From Agromyces sp. H17E-10 (GTDB lineage Bacteria > Actinomycetota > Actinomycetes > Actinomycetales > Microbacteriaceae), in assembly GCF_022919715.1 (NCBI RefSeq), contig NZ_CP095042.1, positions 1,550,001 to 1,614,000 of the forward strand: a stretch of DNA of 64,000 nt, read 5' to 3'. Within the stretch, counting starts at the first letter, position 1. Each line of letters starts with the position of its first letter. The position numbers and the translations under genes are program-made. The notes under the pieces were generated by a model. The model was not told where the DNA came from. It made no database searches and saw only the letters and a program-made list of their open reading frames with translations. This document shows positions 6,546 through 34,594 of this stretch, in pieces.

Positions 6546-8321
6546 TCAGGCGCAAGCCGCCTCGAGCGTCGGGTACACCCGGCCCGCCGCCTCGAGCGCC
6601 GGGAACCAGTCGCCCCGCCGCGCGGATGCCGCGCCCTCAGGGGCGACGGCCGCGAGACGCAGCTCGACGCCCTGCGACGCGAGTTCGCGATCGAGGTCGG
6701 CGAGCATGTCGAGCACCGTGACCGACGTCACCTCGAGGCGAGTGAGCTCGAGGGCGACGGCCCGCACCGCTGGAGCGACCGGCGCGTCAGACGCGACCGG
6801 CACGTCGGGCGCGACCTGCGCATCGGGCGCGACCTGCGCATCGGGCGCGACCGGCGCATCGGGCGCGACCGGCGTCGCCGCCGCATCGTCCTTCGACGCC
6901 GGGGATGCCTCGGCAGCGGCATCCCCGGCCACCGGCGCGGCGACCGCCGCGAGCACCCGGTTCTCGTACGCGAGCGAGTTCGCGGTGAAGAGCGGCCCCA
7001 GCAGTCGCACCGGCAGCACCCCGTTCACGGGCGACCCGATATCGATGCGCACCCGCCCCAGTTCGCGGAAGATGACGACGAACGTCGCGACGAGCCCGAC
7101 GAGCACGGCGTAGAGCAGTCCCGCGGTGAGGCCGACGATCGCGGTCGCGGTCGCGATCCAGAAGTCGTTGCGGCTCGTGCGCCAGAGCAGCACGATCGCG
7201 GTCACGTCGATGAGTCCGATCACCGCGACGAAGACGAGCGATGCGAGCGTCGCCTGCGGCATCATGCTGAGCACCGGCCCGAGGAACAGCGCGACGAGCA
7301 CGGCGAGCCCGACCGTCGTCAGCGATGCGAGCTGCGACCGCGCCCCGGCGCCCTGGTTGACGGCGCTCTGGGAGAACCCGCCCGCCGACGGCAGCGTCTG
7401 GAAGAACGAGCCGACCGTGTTCGCCGCGGCGGTCGCCAGGAGCTCGCGGTTGCTGTCGATCTGCGGTTCGCCGGGCTTGCGGATACCGCGCGCAACCGCC
7501 GTCGACTCGAGGAACGCCATGACCGCGATCGCGATCGCCCCGGGCAGCATGCCCTCGACGTGCGCGAACGACGGCAGCTCGAACGGCGGCAGGCCCTGCG
7601 GCACCGGCGCGATGAGCTTGACGCCGAGCTGCTCCAGGTCGGTGAGCCAGATCGCGATGATGCCGGCCGCGACCACGATGAGCGGCCCAGGCACGCCCTT
7701 GGCGAAGCGCTTGATGAGCAGCAGCGCGGCGATCGACGCGATCGACAGGAGGATCGTCGGCACGTTCGCCCCCGGCAGCGCCTCGATCGCTGCCAGGATC
7801 GCGCGGAAGAACCCGTGCCCCGACCACTCAGACCCCTCGCCGAGCAGCTTCGGCAACTGCCCCACGGCGACCGTCGCGCCGACACCGACCTGCACGCCGA
7901 TGATCGTCGGCTTCGCGATGTACTCCACCACCGAGCCCGCCCGCACGAGCCGCGCGACGAGCAGGATGACCCCGACGATGAGGGTCAGCGCCATGAGGTC
8001 GGGCACCGGGTCCTTGCTGTCGGCCGCGACCCCGCCGGCGACGAGCGTCGTCGCCGTGAGCGTCGCGATCGTCGACGTGGTCGACACGCTCATCGCCCGC
8101 GATCCGCCGATCATCGCGTACACGAGCATCGGCACCATACACGTGTAGAGCCCGATCTGCACGGGCATGTTCGCGATGGTCGAGTACGCCATCGCCTGCG
8201 GCACGACGACAGCACCCGCCGACAGTCCGGCGAGCACGTCGCGGCCGATCAGCGACGGCCGGTAACCCTCGAGCGTCGGGAAGAGGAACCGTGTGCGACG
8301 GGCGGCGGCGGTCTGCGGCAT
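6546..8321 (-). CDS. SulP-family anion permease with STAS domain
   Basis: 591-residue SLC26/SulP transporter, probably for sulfate or another inorganic anion. The N-terminal core (about residues 20-430) has repeated hydrophobic helices and the family start VLAGLSAGAVVVPQAMAY. A STAS-like domain follows at about 500-591 (VALELTRLEVTSVTVLDMLADL). Between them is an Ala/Pro/Val/Asp linker built from six-residue repeats of the APDAPV type (see 6769-6880). It stands next to the FGE and sulfatase genes, consistent with handling released sulfate (inference). The start at 8321 is 6 nt below the HAD gene stop, so the two are co-transcribed. Confidence 0.88.
   Translation of the reverse strand: MPQTAAARRTRFLFPTLEGYRPSLIGRDVLAGLSAGAVVVPQAMAYSTIANMPVQIGLYTCMVPMLVYAMIGGSRAMSVSTTSTIATLTATTLVAGGVAADSKDPVPDLMALTLIVGVILLVARLVRAGSVVEYIAKPTIIGVQVGVGATVAVGQLPKLLGEGSEWSGHGFFRAILAAIEALPGANVPTILLSIASIAALLLIKRFAKGVPGPLIVVAAGIIAIWLTDLEQLGVKLIAPVPQGLPPFELPSFAHVEGMLPGAIAIAVMAFLESTAVARGIRKPGEPQIDSNRELLATAAANTVGSFFQTLPSAGGFSQSAVNQGAGARSQLASLTTVGLAVLVALFLGPVLSMMPQATLASLVFVAVIGLIDVTAIVLLWRTSRNDFWIATATAIVGLTAGLLYAVLVGLVATFVVIFRELGRVRIDIGSPVNGVLPVRLLGPLFTANSLAYENRVLAAVAAPVAGDAAAEASPASKDDAAATPVAPDAPVAPDAQVAPDAQVAPDVPVASDAPVAPAVRAVALELTRLEVTSVTVLDMLADLDRELASQGVELRLAAVAPEGAASARRGDWFPALEAAGRVYPTLEAACA
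6769..6880. repeat. Tandem 18-bp repeat in SulP linker
   Basis: About six copies of an 18-bp unit (GCATCGGGCGCGACCGGC and variants) in frame, coding six-residue repeats of the APDAPV type between the membrane core and STAS domain. Confidence 0.8.
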
Positions 8322-12051: not shown

Positions 12052-12075
12052 GCCTCGATCGTACGTCGGTGCTCG

Positions 12076-12160
12076 GTCGGTCGAGTAGGCGCGAAGCGCC
12101 GTATCGAGACCACCGCCCGACGCCGTGGTCTCGATACGCGCTCCGCGCTACTCGACCGAC
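12076..12160. repeat. Inverted pair of family A REP-like elements
   Basis: Two elements head to head: GTCGGTCGAGTAG ... CGTATCGAGACCAC, an 11-nt centre, then GTGGTCTCGATACGC ... CTACTCGACCGAC. The whole could fold into a long cruciform or RNA hairpin. It sits between the glutaredoxin start and the bS22 terminator. Confidence 0.85.
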
Positions 12161-16319: not shown

Positions 16320-16361
16320 GGGGTCTCGATACGCTCCCTCGTCGCTACTCGACCACCGGGG
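16320..16361. repeat. REP-like element, family A
   Basis: GGGTCTCGATACGC, a short loop, then GTCGCTACTCGACCACCGG, a single copy in the gap before the ABC exporter operon. Confidence 0.8.
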
Positions 16362-19041: not shown

Positions 19042-19527
19042 ATGGCGCGCGACGAGGTCTCACTCAGGGCGGCGGTCGACCAGTCGACCGCCGTCCTGGC
19101 CGGCGCCGGCTTCCCGCGCATGCCCGCACGCGTACTCATGGCGCTGCTCGTCTCCGACCGCGGGCTGACCGCGAGCGAGCTCGGCGGCGAGATCGGCGCG
19201 AGCGCGGCGGCCATCTCGGGCGCGGTGCGCTACCTCGAGCAGCTCGGCGTCGTGCACCGCGTGCGCGAACGCGGCAGCCGGCGCGACCGCTTCGAGTTCT
19301 CGGACGACGCGTGGTACCGCGCGATCGTGCAGAAGTCGTCGATCTACAGCGTCATCGCCGAGCTCTCCGAGCGGGCGGCCGACGCGATCGACGACGAGTC
19401 GCACGCGGGCGTGCGCCGCCTGCGCGACACCGCCGGCTTCTACCGGTTCCTCGACGGCAAGATGCCCGAGCTGCTCGCCGAGTGGGACGCGCAGCGGGAC
19501 GCGACGGTCGCCCCTTCCGCGGGTTGA
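19042..19527 (+). CDS. MarR/GbsR-type transcriptional regulator
   Basis: 161 residues with a winged HTH: ELGGEIGASAAAISGAVRYLEQLGVVHRV and wing RERGSRRDRFEF, then a helical C-terminal half. It is the third gene of the exporter operon and is the likely repressor acting on the palindrome at 16405-16420. It may also have its own leaderless promoter (AAGAAT, 6 nt before ATG). Odd: its last codons and TGA stop are supplied by the left arm of the family B repeat at 19519-19639. Confidence 0.86.
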   Translation: MARDEVSLRAAVDQSTAVLAGAGFPRMPARVLMALLVSDRGLTASELGGEIGASAAAISGAVRYLEQLGVVHRVRERGSRRDRFEFSDDAWYRAIVQKSSIYSVIAELSERAADAIDDESHAGVRRLRDTAGFYRFLDGKMPELLAEWDAQRDATVAPSAG

Positions 19528-19639
19528 GGAGCGAGCGACGAAGGAGCACGCGTCTCGAAACCGGGTGATCGGGGTCCCGGGGTCGGGTTACGTGGTTTCG
19601 AGACGCGTCGCCGCTCCGCGTCGGCGCTCCTCAACCCGC
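19519..19639. repeat. Inverted pair of family B REP-like elements
   Basis: Outer arms GCGGGTTGAGGAGCG (19519-19533) and complement (19625-19639); inner arms ACGCGTCTCGAAACC (19548-19562) and complement (19594-19608). The left outer arm contains the regulator's TGA. It may also serve as the operon's terminator stem. Confidence 0.85.
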
Positions 19640-21664: not shown

Positions 21665-23872
21665 ATGTCGCTCACCAGCGAAACCACCCAGAACACCGGG
21701 CCGGATGCCGCGGCGCCGACCCCGTCGCATCCCGAGTCGTCATCGTCGAAACGTCGCCCGAGCGCGTTCGGACCGCGCCAGCTCGCGACCGCCCTGCCGG
21801 GCGCCCTGCGCAAGCTCGACCCACGGCAGATGTGGCGCAACCCGGTGATGTTCATCGTCGAGGTCGGCGCCGCGCTCACGACCGTGCTCGCGGTGGCCGA
21901 GCCGTTCATCGGCGGTCCGGGCACCTCGGGCGGCAGTGCCGTGCCCGGTTCGTTCACGTGGGCGATCGCCGTCTGGCTGTGGCTCACCGTGGTCTTCGCG
22001 AACCTCGCCGAGTCGGTCGCCGAGGGCCGCGGAAAGGCGCAGGCCGACACGCTGCGGAAGACTCGCACGTCGACGGTGGCGCACCGGGTGGAGCTCGACG
22101 GGGCGGATCTCGATACGGCGCTGGCGCGCCTACTCGATCACCGGAATCACAGTGCGCTGACCGACGTCTCGTCGGCCGACCTGCGGCTCGGCGACTTCGT
22201 CGTCGTGTCGGCGGGCGAGCTCATCCCGGGCGACGGCGACATCGTCGCGGGCATCGCCTCGGTCGACGAGTCGGCGATCACGGGCGAGTCGGCACCCGTC
22301 GTGCGCGAGTCGGGCGGCGACCGGTCGGCCGTCACCGGCGGCACCCGGGTGCTCAGCGACCGCATCGTCGTGCGCATCACCTCGAAGCCGGGCGAGACCT
22401 TCGTCGACCGCATGATCGCGCTCGTCGAGGGCGCCGCCCGGCAGAAGACCCCGAACGAGATCGCGCTCAACATCCTGCTCGCGAGCCTCTCGATCGTGTT
22501 CGTCGTCGTCGTGCTGACGCTCAACCCGATCGCCTCCTACGCGGCGTCGCCCGTGAGCATCACGGTGCTCGTGGCGCTACTCGTGTGCCTCATCCCGACG
22601 ACGATCGGCGCCCTGCTCTCGGCGATCGGCATCGCCGGCATGGACCGCCTCGTGCAACGCAATGTGCTCGCGATGTCGGGCCGTGCGGTCGAGGCCGCGG
22701 GCGACGTCACGACCCTGCTGCTCGACAAGACCGGCACGATCACCTACGGCAACCGTCGCGCGAGCGAGTTCGTGCCGATGCCGGGCGTCGACGAGACCGA
22801 GCTCGTGCGGGCCGCCGCGCTCGCCTCGCTCGCCGACCCCACCCCCGAGGGCAGTTCGATCGTCGAGCTCGCGTCGGCCCGCGGCATCCGGTTCGATGCG
22901 GCGCCCGAGGGCGAGGTCGTGCCGTTCACCGCCCAGACCCGCATGTCGGGGCTCGACCTCGCCGACGGCACGATCGTGCGCAAGGGCGCCGGCTCGGCCG
23001 TGACGGCGTGGGTCGAGGCATCCGCGCCGATCGACCGGGCGACCGCAGATGAGCTGGCCGAGCGCGTCGACGCGATCTCGACCGGCGGCGGTACCCCGCT
23101 CGTCGTCGCGGTGCACGAGCCTGGCCAGGCACCGCGCATCCTCGGCGTCGTGCACCTCAAGGACATCGTGAAGGACGGGCTCACCGAACGCTTCGCCGAG
23201 CTGCGCGCGATGGGCATCCGCACCGTCATGATCACGGGCGACAACCCGCTCACGGCCGCCGCGATCGCGAAGGAGGCGGGCGTCGACGACTACCTCGCCG
23301 AGGCCACCCCCGAGGACAAGCTCGCGCTCATCCGGCGCGAGCAGGAGGGCGGCAACCTCGTGGCTATGACGGGCGACGGCACGAACGACGCGCCCGCGCT
23401 CGCCCAGGCCGATGTCGGCGTCGCGATGAACACGGGCACGTCGGCCGCGAAGGAGGCCGGCAACATGGTCGACCTCGACAGCGACCCGACGAAGCTCATC
23501 GACATCGTGCGCATCGGCAAGCAGCTGCTCATCACGCGCGGCGCGCTCACGACGTTCTCGATCGCGAACGACGTGGCGAAGTACTTCGCGATCATCCCGG
23601 CGATGTTCGCGGGCGTGTTCCCGGGGCTCGGGGTGCTCAACCTCATGCAGCTGCACTCCCCCGCCTCGGCGGTGCTGTCGGCCGTCATCTTCAACGCGAT
23701 CGTCATCATCGCGCTCATCCCGCTCGCACTGCGCGGCGTGAAGTACCGGCCGGGCGACGCGAGCTCGATCCTCAGTCGCAATCTGCTCGTCTACGGACTC
23801 GGCGGCATCATCGCCCCGTTCATCGGCATCAAGCTGATCGACCTCGTCATCAGCCTCATCCCCGGCTTCTGA
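21665..23872 (+). CDS. kdpB: Potassium-transporting ATPase ATP-binding subunit B, with in-frame repeat insertion
   Basis: 735-residue P-type ATPase subunit. A-domain motif TGES at about 206-209, phosphorylation site DKTGTIT with Asp354, N-domain FTAQTRMSG, and hinge [16 protein letters not shown] are intact, so it looks active. An N-terminal extension of about 40 residues is Ser/Pro rich. Odd: codons 147-160 (22103-22144), at the edge of the A-domain, are a copy of the dispersed family A repeat; this stretch makes the region 14 residues longer than E. coli KdpB, exactly the length of the repeat. Confidence 0.97.
22103..22144 (+). repeat. Family A REP-like element inserted in frame in kdpB
   Basis: 42 bp reading GCGGATCTCGATACGGCG ... 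CGCCTACTCGATCACCGG, closely matching the intergenic elements (GGTCTCGATACGC ... GCTACTCGACCACCGG). It codes [14 protein letters not shown] in kdpB. Confidence 0.8.
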
Positions 23873-23890: not shown

Positions 23891-24505
23891 ATGACCTCCA
23901 CCCGCACCACCCTCCGCACCCACTGGGTCGCGCTCCGCGCGATGATCGCCTTCACCCTCGTGCTCGGCGTCGCGTACACCGCCCTCGTCACCGCGATCGG
24001 CCAGCTCGCGCTGCCCGCCCAGGCGAACGGCTCGCTCGTGCACGATGCTGACGGCGCCGTCGTCGGCTCCTCCCTCATCGGGCAACCGTTCGCGGATGCC
24101 TCGGGCGCGCCGTCGCACGACTGGTTCCAGCCGCGCCCCTCGGCCGCCGGAGACGGCTACGACGGCGGCGCCTCGAGCGGCAGCAACCTCGGGCCCGAGA
24201 ACCCCGACCTCGTCTCGGCCATCGAGGAGCGCCGCACCCAGGTCGCGGCGGCCGACGGCGTCGCACCCGACGAGGTGCCCGCCGACGCACTCACCGCCTC
24301 GGCCTCCGGCCTCGACCCGCACATCAGCCCCGAGTACGCCCGCCTGCAGGTCGCCCGCGTCGCGGCCGCCCGCGGGCTCCCCGAGGCCGAGGTCGCGAAG
24401 CTCGTCGACGAGCACGTGCAGGGCCGCGACCTCGGTTACCTCGGCGAGCCGACCGTGAACGTGCTCGAGCTCAACCTCGCGCTCGCGGCCCTGGTGGGAG
24501 ACTGA
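23891..24505 (+). CDS. kdpC: Potassium-transporting ATPase subunit C
   Basis: 204 residues with one N-terminal helix (about 18-38) and an extracytoplasmic domain carrying GSSLIGQPF, WFQPRPSAAGDGYDGGASSGSNLGPENPDL and GLDPHISPEYARLQVARVA, all KdpC hallmarks. AAAGGA lies ahead of the ATG. It assembles with KdpA and KdpB. Confidence 0.96.
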   Translation: MTSTRTTLRTHWVALRAMIAFTLVLGVAYTALVTAIGQLALPAQANGSLVHDADGAVVGSSLIGQPFADASGAPSHDWFQPRPSAAGDGYDGGASSGSNLGPENPDLVSAIEERRTQVAAADGVAPDEVPADALTASASGLDPHISPEYARLQVARVAAARGLPEAEVAKLVDEHVQGRDLGYLGEPTVNVLELNLALAALVGD

Positions 24506-24509
24506 CCAC

Positions 24510-26999
24510 ATGAAGCGGGGGCGATTGCGGGTGCTGCTCGGCGCCGCGCCCGGCGTCGGCAAGACCTACACGATGCTCGAGGAGGGCAAGCGACTCGGCG
24601 GCGAGGGCCGCGACGTCGTCGTCGGCTTCGTCGAGACGCACGGCCGGCGCGCGACCGCCGAGATGACCACGGGCCTCGAGATCGTGCCGCGCCGCACGAC
24701 CACACACCGCGGCATGGCGATCGACGAGATGGACCTCGACGCCGTGCTCGCGCGTCGCCCCGAGGTCGCCCTCGTCGACGAGCTCGCCCACACGAACGCG
24801 CCCGGCTCGCGGCACGCGAAGCGCTGGCAGGACGTCGAGGAGCTCCTCGATGCGGGCATCGACGTCATCTCGACCGTCAACGCGCAGCACATCGAGTCGC
24901 TCGGCGACGTGGTGCTGCAGATCACCGGGGTGCCGCAACGCGAGACGATTCCCGACCGGGTGCTGCGCTCGGCCGACCAGATCGAGGTCGTCGACCTCTC
25001 GCCGCAGGCGCTGCGCGACCGCCTCTCGGGCGGGCTCGTCTACCCGGCCGAGCGCATCGACGCGGCGCTGTCGAACTACTTCCGGCTCGGCAACCTGACG
25101 GCGCTGCGCGAGCTCGCGCTGCTGTGGCTGGCCGACGAGGTCGACCAGGCCCTCAAGAAGTACCGCGCCGAGCACGGCATCGACCGCAAGTGGGAGGCGC
25201 GCGAGCGCGTCGTCGTCGCCCTCACGGGCGGCCCCGAGGGCGAGACGCTGCTGCGCCGAGGTGCCCGCATCGCCGCCCGCGCGTCGGGCGGCGAGCTCAT
25301 CGCCGTGCACGTCACCAATCCCGACGGCATGCGCCCGAGGCATCCGGGCACCCTCGACGCCCAGCGCTCGCTCGTCGAGCAGTTGGGCGGCACGTTCCAC
25401 CAGGTCGTCGGCGAGGACGTGCCGCGCACCCTCGTCGAGTTCGCGCGCGGCGTCGATGCGACGCAGCTCGTCATCGGCGTCAGCCGTCGCTCGCGGCTCG
25501 CGGCGGCGTTCTCGCCGCCCGGCATCGGCGCGACCGTCATCCGCGAGTCGGGCGACATCGACGTGCACATCGTGACGCACGCGGCCGCCGGCCCCGCCGT
25601 CTCGCTGCCCCGCCTCTCGCGGGGTGCGCTCGGCCGCACCCGGCTGCTGCTCGGCTTCGCCGTCGCCCTCGTCGCCGGGCCGTTGCTGAGCTGGGTGCTC
25701 AAGCTCTTCCACACCGAGTCGTCGATCACGAGCGACGTGCTCGCGTACCAACTGCTCGTCATCGTCGTCGCGCTCATCGGCGGCATCTGGCCCGCGCTCT
25801 TCGCGGCCGTGCTTTCGGGCCTCACGCTCAACTTCCTCTTCATCCAGCCGCTCTACACGCTCACGATCGCGGAGCCCCGCCAACTGCTGGCGCTCGTCTT
25901 CTACGTCGCCAACGCGCTGCTCGTGAGCTACGTCGTCGACCAGGCGGCCCGGCGCACCCGCGAGGCGCGGCGCGCGGCCGCCGAGTCGCAGATGCTCGCG
26001 ACGATGGCCGGCAGCGTGCTGCGCGGCGAGGACGCCCTGCAGGCCATGGTCACCCGCACGCGCGAGGCGTTCGGGCTGACGGGCGTGCGGCTCCTCGTCG
26101 ACGGCGAACCGGTCGTCGCCGACGGCGAACCGTCGAACGACGACCGCGTGACGATGCTGCCCATCGCCGACCGTGCCGTGCTCGAGCTGCACGGTCATGA
26201 TCCGGATGCCTCGGAGCGACGCCTCCTGCAGGTGATCGCCACGCAGATGGATGCGGCGCTCGAGCACGGCGCGCTGCGGTCGGCCGCCGAGGAGGCGTCG
26301 GAGCTCGCCGAGACCGATCGCGTGCGCTCGGCACTGCTCGCGGCGGTGGGGCACGACCTGCGGCGTCCACTCACCTCGGCGAGCGCGGCGATCAGCGCGC
26401 TGCGTTCGGCCGAGCTTCGGCTGCCCGACGACGAGCGCCGGGAGCTGCTCGACACGGCGGCCGAGAGCCTCGACTCGCTCGCCGAGCTCGTCACGAACCT
26501 GCTCGACGTGAGCCGCGTGCAGGCCGGCGCCCTCGCCGTGCGGCTCGCACCGATCGAGGCGGCCGACGTCGTGTTCCCCGCGCTCGACGAGCTGGGTCTC
26601 GGGCCCGGCGAGGTCGAGCTCGACGTCGCCGACGACGCGCCGCTGCTCCTCGCCGATGCGGGCCTCCTGCAACGCGTGGTCGTCAACCTGCTCGCGAACG
26701 CGGTGCGCCATTCGCCCGACGGCGAGCGGGTGCGACTCGCCGCGTCGGGGTTCCGCGATCAGGTGCAGCTGCGCGTCGTCGACCGCGGCCCCGGCATCCC
26801 GCCCGAACGGCGCGACGAGGTGTTCACCCCCTTCCAACGGCTCGGCGACACCGACAACGAGACGGGACTCGGGCTCGGGCTCGCCCTGTCGAAGGGGTTC
26901 GTCGAGGGGATGGACGGCACACTGGAGGTCGAGGACACGCCGGGCGGCGGGCTCACCATGGTCGTGACACTGCCGGCCGCGACCGACGAGGAGGCATGA
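24510..26999 (+). CDS. kdpD: Sensor histidine kinase KdpD
   Basis: 829 residues: N-terminal KdpD domain with Walker A GAAPGVGKT (about 11-19) and VDELAHTNAPGSRHAKRWQDVEELL; a universal-stress-like domain (about 230-360); a four-helix DUF4118 membrane region (about 375-475); a GAF-like linker; HisKA with VGHDLRRPLTSASA (His615), and HATPase with NLLANAVRHSP, GPGIPPERR and GLGLGLALSKGF. It senses K+ limitation or osmotic state and phosphorylates KdpE. Four bases separate it from kdpC. Confidence 0.97.
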   Translation: MKRGRLRVLLGAAPGVGKTYTMLEEGKRLGGEGRDVVVGFVETHGRRATAEMTTGLEIVPRRTTTHRGMAIDEMDLDAVLARRPEVALVDELAHTNAPGSRHAKRWQDVEELLDAGIDVISTVNAQHIESLGDVVLQITGVPQRETIPDRVLRSADQIEVVDLSPQALRDRLSGGLVYPAERIDAALSNYFRLGNLTALRELALLWLADEVDQALKKYRAEHGIDRKWEARERVVVALTGGPEGETLLRRGARIAARASGGELIAVHVTNPDGMRPRHPGTLDAQRSLVEQLGGTFHQVVGEDVPRTLVEFARGVDATQLVIGVSRRSRLAAAFSPPGIGATVIRESGDIDVHIVTHAAAGPAVSLPRLSRGALGRTRLLLGFAVALVAGPLLSWVLKLFHTESSITSDVLAYQLLVIVVALIGGIWPALFAAVLSGLTLNFLFIQPLYTLTIAEPRQLLALVFYVANALLVSYVVDQAARRTREARRAAAESQMLATMAGSVLRGEDALQAMVTRTREAFGLTGVRLLVDGEPVVADGEPSNDDRVTMLPIADRAVLELHGHDPDASERRLLQVIATQMDAALEHGALRSAAEEASELAETDRVRSALLAAVGHDLRRPLTSASAAISALRSAELRLPDDERRELLDTAAESLDSLAELVTNLLDVSRVQAGALAVRLAPIEAADVVFPALDELGLGPGEVELDVADDAPLLLADAGLLQRVVVNLLANAVRHSPDGERVRLAASGFRDQVQLRVVDRGPGIPPERRDEVFTPFQRLGDTDNETGLGLGLALSKGFVEGMDGTLEVEDTPGGGLTMVVTLPAATDEEA

Positions 27000-27694
27000 T
27001 GAGGATCCTCCTCGCCGACGATGACGAGCAGCTGCAGCGCGCACTGCGCATCACCCTCGCCGCGCGCGGCTACGAGGTGCTGCACGCACGCGACGGGGCC
27101 GAGGCGATCGACCGGGCCGCGAACGGCCACCCCGACCTCATCCTGCTCGACCTCGGCATGCCGAAGGTCGACGGCATCGACGTCATCCGCGCCGTGCGTG
27201 CATGGTCGAGCGTGCCGATCCTCGTGCTGTCGGGCCGCACCGACTCGGGCGAGAAGGTCGAGGCGCTCGACGCCGGCGCCGACGACTACGTGACGAAGCC
27301 GTTCTCGATGGACGAGCTGCTCGCCCGCATCCGGGCCCGATCGCGCCGGCCCGCCGATGAGGGCGACGGAGGTGCGGTGCACCACGTCGGCGACCTCGAG
27401 GTCGACCTCGCGGCTCGCGTCGTGCGACCGACCGGTTCGGACGGCGCCGGCCACGGGGCATCCGTTCGCCTGACGCCCACCGAGTGGCGGCTGCTCGAGC
27501 TGTTCCTCAAGCACCCCGGCAAGCTGCTCACGCGTGAGATGCTGCTGAGCGAGGTGTGGGGCCCGTACCACGCGAACGACGCCGGCTACCTGCGGCTCTA
27601 CGTCGCGCAACTGCGGCGCAAGCTCGAGCCCGTGCCGTCGGAGCCGAAGCACTTCCTCAACGAGCCCGGGCTCGGGTACCGGTTCGAGCCGTAG
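26996..27694 (+). CDS. kdpE: Response regulator KdpE
   Basis: 232-residue OmpR/PhoB-type regulator. Receiver domain with acidic pocket LADDDE, phospho-acceptor Asp52 in LLDLGMPKVDG and Lys in VTKPFSMDELLARI; C-terminal winged helix with LTPTEWRLLELFLKHPGKLLTREMLL. ATG overlaps the kdpD stop (ATGA). It should activate the kdp promoter upstream of 19802. Confidence 0.96.
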   Translation: MMRILLADDDEQLQRALRITLAARGYEVLHARDGAEAIDRAANGHPDLILLDLGMPKVDGIDVIRAVRAWSSVPILVLSGRTDSGEKVEALDAGADDYVTKPFSMDELLARIRARSRRPADEGDGGAVHHVGDLEVDLAARVVRPTGSDGAGHGASVRLTPTEWRLLELFLKHPGKLLTREMLLSEVWGPYHANDAGYLRLYVAQLRRKLEPVPSEPKHFLNEPGLGYRFEP

Positions 27695-34516: not shown

Positions 34517-34594
34517 GACGGAGGAGCACGCGTATCGAGACCCTCGCGAGAGGGTCTCGATACGCTCCTCCGTCGCTACTCGACCACCGGGTGG
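34517..34594. repeat. Perfect REP-like hairpin, family A, supplying a gene's stop codon
   Basis: GACGGAGGAG ... GCGTATCGAGACCCTC pairs with GAGGGTCTCGATACGC ... CTCCTCCGTC (34517-34574), followed by GCTACTCGACCACCGGGTGG. The minus-strand ECF42 gene ends inside it: CTA at 34576-34578 is its TAG stop and the previous codons come from the repeat. Confidence 0.85.

Follow-up and report, generated by a model that had tools for sequence, protein, structure and literature searches.

The kdpB gene of Agromyces sp. H17E-10 contains 13 extra codons that are very probably a copy of a short, REP-like repeat (family A), gained in frame in this lineage and carried most likely as a near-neutral passenger. 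The gene was analyzed within a window of 64,000 nucleotides (the whole stretch of DNA examined, positions 1,550,001 to 1,614,000 of the contig), where it is followed by the genes listed here.

21665 to 23872, + strand: kdpB, 735 aa, P-type ATPase subunit of the Kdp potassium pump, unbroken frame
23891 to 24505, + strand: presumed kdpC, by operon position
24510 to 26999, + strand: presumed kdpD, sensor kinase, from the open reading frame list
26996 to 27694, + strand: presumed kdpE, response regulator; the operon is unbroken beyond the insertion

The names kdpC, kdpD, and kdpE are those we take the genes to have from their order in the operon. The kdpB product matches the Escherichia coli KdpB chains (E 8.5e-245) and contains the Pfam domains PF00122 and PF00702, with the E1-E2 ATPase match at residues 163-331. 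All features that define the class are present (E1-E2 ATPase and HAD domains, DKTGT, TGES, and GDGxNDAPAL). The original prediction held that the ATPase motifs had survived the insertion, and they have: TGES (206), DKTGT (354), and the third motif at 570 are unbroken, and TGES, DKTGT, and the hinge motif are unaffected by the insert. The gene probably encodes a working pump. A strong KdpB match was found in only 32 of 60 genus genomes (this one included), 28 of 60 having none, which indicates that the gene is dispensable in the genus and would fit a kdpB in decay, with the insertion as a mark of gene loss. Against this stand the 735-codon open frame, the unbroken motifs, a strong codon signal on both sides of the insert, and an operon complete through kdpE, and we regard decay as very improbable.

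Family A is described by the pattern TCTCGATACG-N4-24-CTACTCGA, which has 114 matches in the 4,250,163-bp genome (one contig); as a control, the pattern read backwards has 0 matches in the same genome. The search listed 100 of the 114 matches, and the fetched stretches hold 115 matches to a pattern looser by one base, 108 of them strict, with ~6 of the 114 strict copies lying outside those stretches. Base-by-base conservation across the 115 copies runs from GGT at the left boundary to CCACCGG at the right one, with little or none beyond. The element is composed of GGTCTCGATACG, a variable core, and CTACTCGACCACCGG, and its reverse strand reads GGTCGAGTAG-core-CGTATCGAGACC. Depending on the sub-type, the conserved span is 32-48 nt, with cores of 5 to 21 nt. 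With 114 matches and a length of 39 nt in kdpB, family A has the size and copy number of REPs in the broad sense (20-40 bp, tens to hundreds of copies), although its longest sub-types slightly exceed 40 nt. The repeat is stop-free in five of six frames. The copies in the window, and the core of the one in kdpB, are as follows.

22106 to 22144, + strand: family A copy in kdpB, 39 nt, codons 148-160, in frame
22108 to 22137, + strand: 30-nt core of the kdpB copy, with five exact occurrences genome-wide, kdpB included
543 to 581, - strand: family A copy from the window pattern search
2772 to 2809, + strand: slightly degenerate family A copy, in which CCACTCGACC replaces CTACTCGACC (repeat family D8)
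12079 to 12109, - strand: family A copy from the window pattern search
12129 to 12157, + strand: family A copy forming an inverted pair with the copy at 12079 to 12109
16324 to 16354, + strand: family A copy from the window pattern search
34555 to 34585, + strand: family A copy from the window pattern search

A family A copy had been proposed at codons 147-160 of kdpB (22103-22144); the identity of the repeat holds, and its true extent is 22106-22144, or 13 codons. The kdpB copy matches the consensus at 37 of 39 positions; L062, L064, and L065, which belong to its sub-type, each match it equally well, and L063 matches it at 35 of 39. The kdpB copy departs from the consensus by GGTC to GATC and GACC to GATC, so that the outer arms stay complementary. 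The four other exact 30-nt cores are located at C1 1650857 (-), 2280430 (+), 2547903 (+), and 2592537 (+). A form two bases longer than the family A pattern occurs five times in the window (0.00 expected in 100 shuffles); the kdpB copy falls outside these five because it reads CTACTCGATC. On the reverse strand, the predicted fold of the kdpB copy has an energy of -10.6 kcal/mol (z -2.6), a value equaled or bettered by 2 of 200 shuffles. Six other folds gave z -2.1 for 12074-12116 and z -1.6 to +1.4 for the remaining five, unusual stability being found for only one of the five other window copies (z -2.1), and the wider + strand segment 22095-22160 showed no unusual stability (z 0.34).

Several further features of the repeats were observed. 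Copy L062 (C1 ~1650857) is a full 30-nt-core copy just past a stop codon; behind it come two partial units, arranged head to tail, from which the left half is missing. The spread along the chromosome is uneven, at least 105 of the 114 strict copies lying between 666,022 and ~2,997,400 of 4,250,163. A second repeat family, B (TTCGAGACG...CTCAACC), is present in the window upstream of kdpA at 19522-19559 (-) and 19597-19636 (+), with 0.00 occurrences expected in shuffles, and a tandem 18-bp repeat of ~seven units in register (family D2) occupies 6758-6883.

Comparison with relatives identifies the kdpB segment, on the evidence of aligned sequences, as a real insertion. Between KAQA and LRxGD, all 30 of the same-genus relatives whose loop was read from DNA have 38 residues, compared with 45 here and 31 in E. 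coli. The counts of 45 and 31 had been given correctly in the original prediction, but the difference of 14 is coincidental; as a sign of a clean 14-codon insertion here it was rejected, because the close relatives have 38 residues rather than 31 and the net gain is seven. The 30 loops comprise 28 and 2 from two DNA readings, a 31st (L049), which the text probe missed, being left out. At the protein level, a search of 5.8 billion proteins yielded 7,999 scored relatives. Among the best 120 of these (this one included), the loop was ordinary in 114 by automatic reading and in 4 by eye, the latter being two that the text probe overran and two that it missed. The expected absence of the segment from close relatives was therefore borne out both in the 30 loops read from DNA and in 118 of the 120 proteins listed. 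The repeat peptide was found in two, our own protein (P0001) and P0024 from Agromyces neolithicus; the nearest proteins, P0002 (91% identical) and P0003 (87%), lack it. In the near relative G032 (kdpB locus L187), and in P0003, the nucleotide-binding domain carries an unrelated 60-bp in-frame insertion.

Relative to close relatives, the 39-bp element brings a net gain of +21 bp (7 codons), from which we infer that ~18 bp of the native kdpB loop were lost or replaced, and in the DNA alignment the upstream part of the turn is also altered. The event was not a clean insertion, and the ancestral local sequence is therefore not recovered exactly. A reading of the segment as ancestral in actinobacterial KdpB, with a resemblance to the repeat that is due to chance or to derivation of the repeat from KdpB, is suggested by the E. 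coli loop, which is shorter by 14. This reading is hardly credible and, as far as the present data reach, is refuted by the absence of the segment in relatives; in addition, the repeat is abundant in genus genomes that have no strong KdpB match (185 copies in G017, 175 in G044), and 30 of 30 core bases are identical to those at four other places in this genome.

An AlphaFold2 model built from 63 sequences (mean pLDDT 80, pTM 0.70), which replaced an earlier one from 28 sequences (pLDDT 58), predicts the insert as a short helix (149-157, local pLDDT ~84) that connects strands 138-142 and 165-169 and closely precedes the Pfam E1-E2 ATPase match. In KdpB structures this site is the start of the A domain. 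Foldseek placed the model nearest to KdpB chains of KdpFABC (best query TM-score 0.71), which adds little to the sequence match. The turn is variable and probably solvent-exposed, and the insert marks it as one that appears to tolerate an extra short helix.

These observations support the core of the original prediction, that a short dispersed repeat entered kdpB in frame at an A-domain loop, and they suggest the following course. A short, high-copy, REP-like repeat would disperse within Agromyces genomes, and, once the lineage had split from its nearest sequenced relatives, one copy of the 30-nt-core sub-type would have inserted into the turn that joins two β strands where the KdpB A domain begins. 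The ~18 bp of native loop would have disappeared either together with the insertion or afterwards, so that the loop grew by seven residues and the frame stayed open. Two properties may explain the survival of the copy, namely the variable and probably exposed nature of the turn and the lack of stop codons in most frames of the repeat; gene-breaking insertions would have been removed by selection. The extension of the KdpB loop is most likely near-neutral, and the kdpB copy would be one of a set of in-frame passengers (KdpB, an ABC ATPase, MenD, ClpC, and others).

As had been anticipated, other in-frame copies were found in the same genome. A codon-score scan of the 115 copies, in which a copy was flagged if it had one open frame and a coding signal on both sides, returned 11, and 10 copies in eight genes were judged to be in-gene and in frame. 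The copy at 1524713 (L148) was dropped, since it is situated upstream of the probable start codon in what is presumably a polyphosphate-kinase-2-like ORF. The eight genes encode KdpB, an ABC-transporter ATPase, MenD, ClpC, a GH42 β-galactosidase, a GH38 mannosidase, an APH/class-III aminotransferase fusion, and what we take to be a GH5-like membrane protein. Pfam domains were obtained in a domain scan for six of them (all but kdpB and the GH5-like gene); MenD and ClpC are the names we presume from domains and sequence. Frame statistics over all copies were rejected as proof of in-gene insertion: 11 of 39 copies with same-strand coding flanks share one open frame, which is about the random expectation, and in the lack of an excess the in-gene case rests on orthologues. 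Such a comparison covers four of the eight genes, the other four being placed by their open frame, three of them with Pfam domains.

In the ABC ATPase, a 36-bp insertion of the same sub-type as the kdpB copy is missing from 22 of 22 genus orthologues at the protein level. All 22 read GLKG-xx-WRD or a close variant at the site, and a DNA alignment with eight orthologues shows one single 36-nt gap. MenD has two linkers of very variable length. It was read in 29 of 30 loci fetched, out of 56 genomes with a match, and strict family A or B copies are present in 4 of the 29 species, family A in the source genome only and the sister family B (TTCGAGACG...CTCAACC) in all four. For ClpC, 59 of 60 genomes match at E <= 1e-150, some with only a 52% paralogue, and the 30 best-matching genomes were read. 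The linker before the second AAA domain contains strict copies in 12 of these 30 species (family A in 11, B in 2). Both orientations occur among these copies, and their cores differ; other ClpC linkers, including that of the near relative G032, are short and have no strict copy. Several reading frames of the repeat are in use, GRVGAQRRIET being one reading among the genes, and these differences in frame and orientation suggest that no one peptide is favored or selected. Together, the orthologue alignments indicate that in-frame entry is recurrent in the genus (ABC ATPase, MenD, ClpC, and the KdpB of a second species).

That second KdpB, P0024 of A. neolithicus, has the peptide at the same site as a clean gain of 14 residues at the protein level. 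P0001 and P0024 have the same 11 residues in the same frame and share an Asp at a position for which the repeat consensus specifies Gly. The flanks differ (VTAYDEVSD..ERTPLAE in one of them), those of each protein matching its own lineage, and the right insert ends differ as well, PAA in one KdpB versus HRNH in the other. In a quick tree made without the loop from 86 rows (P0001-P0090 minus P0017, P0047, P0070, and P0083; P0091-P0120 were left out), P0003 and P0002 join P0001 at supports of 92 and 94, and P0024 is placed elsewhere. The strongly supported branches do not by themselves force two origins; a single clade of P0001 and P0024 was rejected by the AU test (p 0.00057, 27 hand-picked rows). 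Because the nearest proteins lack the segment, and in light of the tree and the clade test, the segment appears to have been gained recently in this lineage. The A. neolithicus loop was found at no locus among the 60 genus genomes searched, nor among the best 80 matches listed in a scan of genome contigs. A further extra stretch, at residues 470-490 in the nucleotide-binding domain of P0024 (QSSGQSSLLDGSGRSTSAHSI), is not recognizably family A.

The P0024 segment may represent either an independent gain or an exchange of a very short stretch. A single insertion, subsequently passed from one Agromyces species to another when a short piece of kdpB recombined, would account for the identical 11 residues, the common site, and the shared Asp, and would be compatible with the strong branches of the quick tree taken alone. 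We consider it rather unlikely, since the flanks follow each protein's own lineage, the right ends disagree, and the rest of the gene rejects one clade. The same coincidence of site, frame, and residues in two non-sister proteins, together with the modeled ordered helix, could instead speak for a domesticated insertion, in which the added helix alters pump regulation or A-domain movement under positive selection and A. neolithicus is a case of convergence. However, the frame and orientation of the repeat are different in other proteins, which argues that the peptide is not generally chosen, and only 2 of the 120 listed KdpB proteins have the segment; the odds are long against domestication, and a near-neutral passenger is the preferred reading. 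A second occurrence at the same site in another lineage exceeds the expectation for random insertion, which hints at target preference or interspecies exchange.

The family A pattern was detected in 46 of 120 genomes, comprising 43 of 60 from the free-living genus Agromyces (this genome included) and 3 of the 13 that represent other genera within the family, and in 0 of 47 genomes from other families of the order. Copy number ranges from 0 to 299 per genome, a distribution that is genus-wide but patchy. G017 has same-strand arrays of family A with a spacing of ~100 bp (G017:C1 515387-515835, 601650-601888, and 1435044-1435268, among others), a layout that contrasts with the close inverted pairs of the source genome. 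The repeat probably disperses by copying. A search for the Y1 transposase domain (PF01797) found it in 0 of 60 genus genomes, the source genome included, with the control positive in 5 of 14 named genomes; a RAYT was accordingly rejected as the mover. We tentatively consider, as a possibility that is somewhat doubtful, that an unrecognized non-Y1 mechanism with target preference repeatedly hits the KdpB turn, the ClpC linker, and the MenD linkers. If such a preference exists, in-frame repeat insertion would be an ongoing, lineage-specific source of loop and linker variation rather than a rare accident.

Being in frame in several genes and in related species, the repeat naturally gives rise to small insertions in proteins. 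That noncoding palindromes can turn into protein sequence, and in this way supply new segments, is documented but has been little tested; the best-known cases are in Rickettsia and some Proteobacteria. Given the range of copy numbers, the empty sites in relatives, and the reuse of loops, forms of ClpC, MenD, KdpB, and the ABC ATPase that carry the insert can be compared directly with forms that lack it, and a comparison of copy-rich with copy-free species opens a search for the mobilizing enzyme.

Three known systems bear comparison with family A. The GTAG/CGTC REPs are short, palindromic, high-copy repeats, some of them lying wholly inside ORFs of known proteins; in the available text of PMC3733652, flexible linkers and loops are proposed as tolerated sites, and recB is described as hit by REPs at about the same site in two species. 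Family A is likewise short and high-copy, with copies inside ORFs. A GTAG-tagged REP, however, has GTAG at the end of the element and an associated RAYT (Y1) as part of the REPtron, whereas in family A the reverse-strand GTAG is ~11 nt inside the conserved edge and PF01797 was found in 0 of 60 genus genomes. For the GTAG REPs, PMC3733652 reports Proteobacteria, Cyanobacteria, Chloroflexi, and the PVC group as hosts, and the word "actinobacteria" has 0 occurrences in its text. With REP-RAYT systems, as far as the accessible parts of PMC2817692 and PMC3733652 describe them, family A shares part of the repeat anatomy, an imperfect palindrome with GTAG and inverted pairs some tens of bp apart (window 12079-12157), but not the Y1 transposase, which was found in none of the 60 genus genomes. 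Rickettsial palindromic elements (RPEs) occur in frame in several unrelated Rickettsia genes, their peptides being described as solvent-exposed, and family A is similarly in frame in several unrelated genes (kdpB, ABC ATPase, MenD, and ClpC). According to the available portions of PMC3767692 and PMC10969869, RPEs are ~100-150 bp, belong to obligate intracellular bacteria, and in the R. japonica paper are insertions shared at the same locus by rickettsial orthologues. As a class they are CGTC-tagged elements of Rickettsiales, whereas family A, at 39 nt in kdpB and with another sequence, belongs to GC-rich Agromyces and its insertions are commonly missing from orthologues. In the open literature, subscription papers excepted, we found no description of this repeat family or of in-frame repeats in Microbacteriaceae. 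In-frame palindromic repeats in genes are already known elsewhere; what is seen here is a new family, without a recognizable RAYT, in an actinobacterial genus, and by the linkers compared across species the family frequently reuses the same sites in Agromyces.
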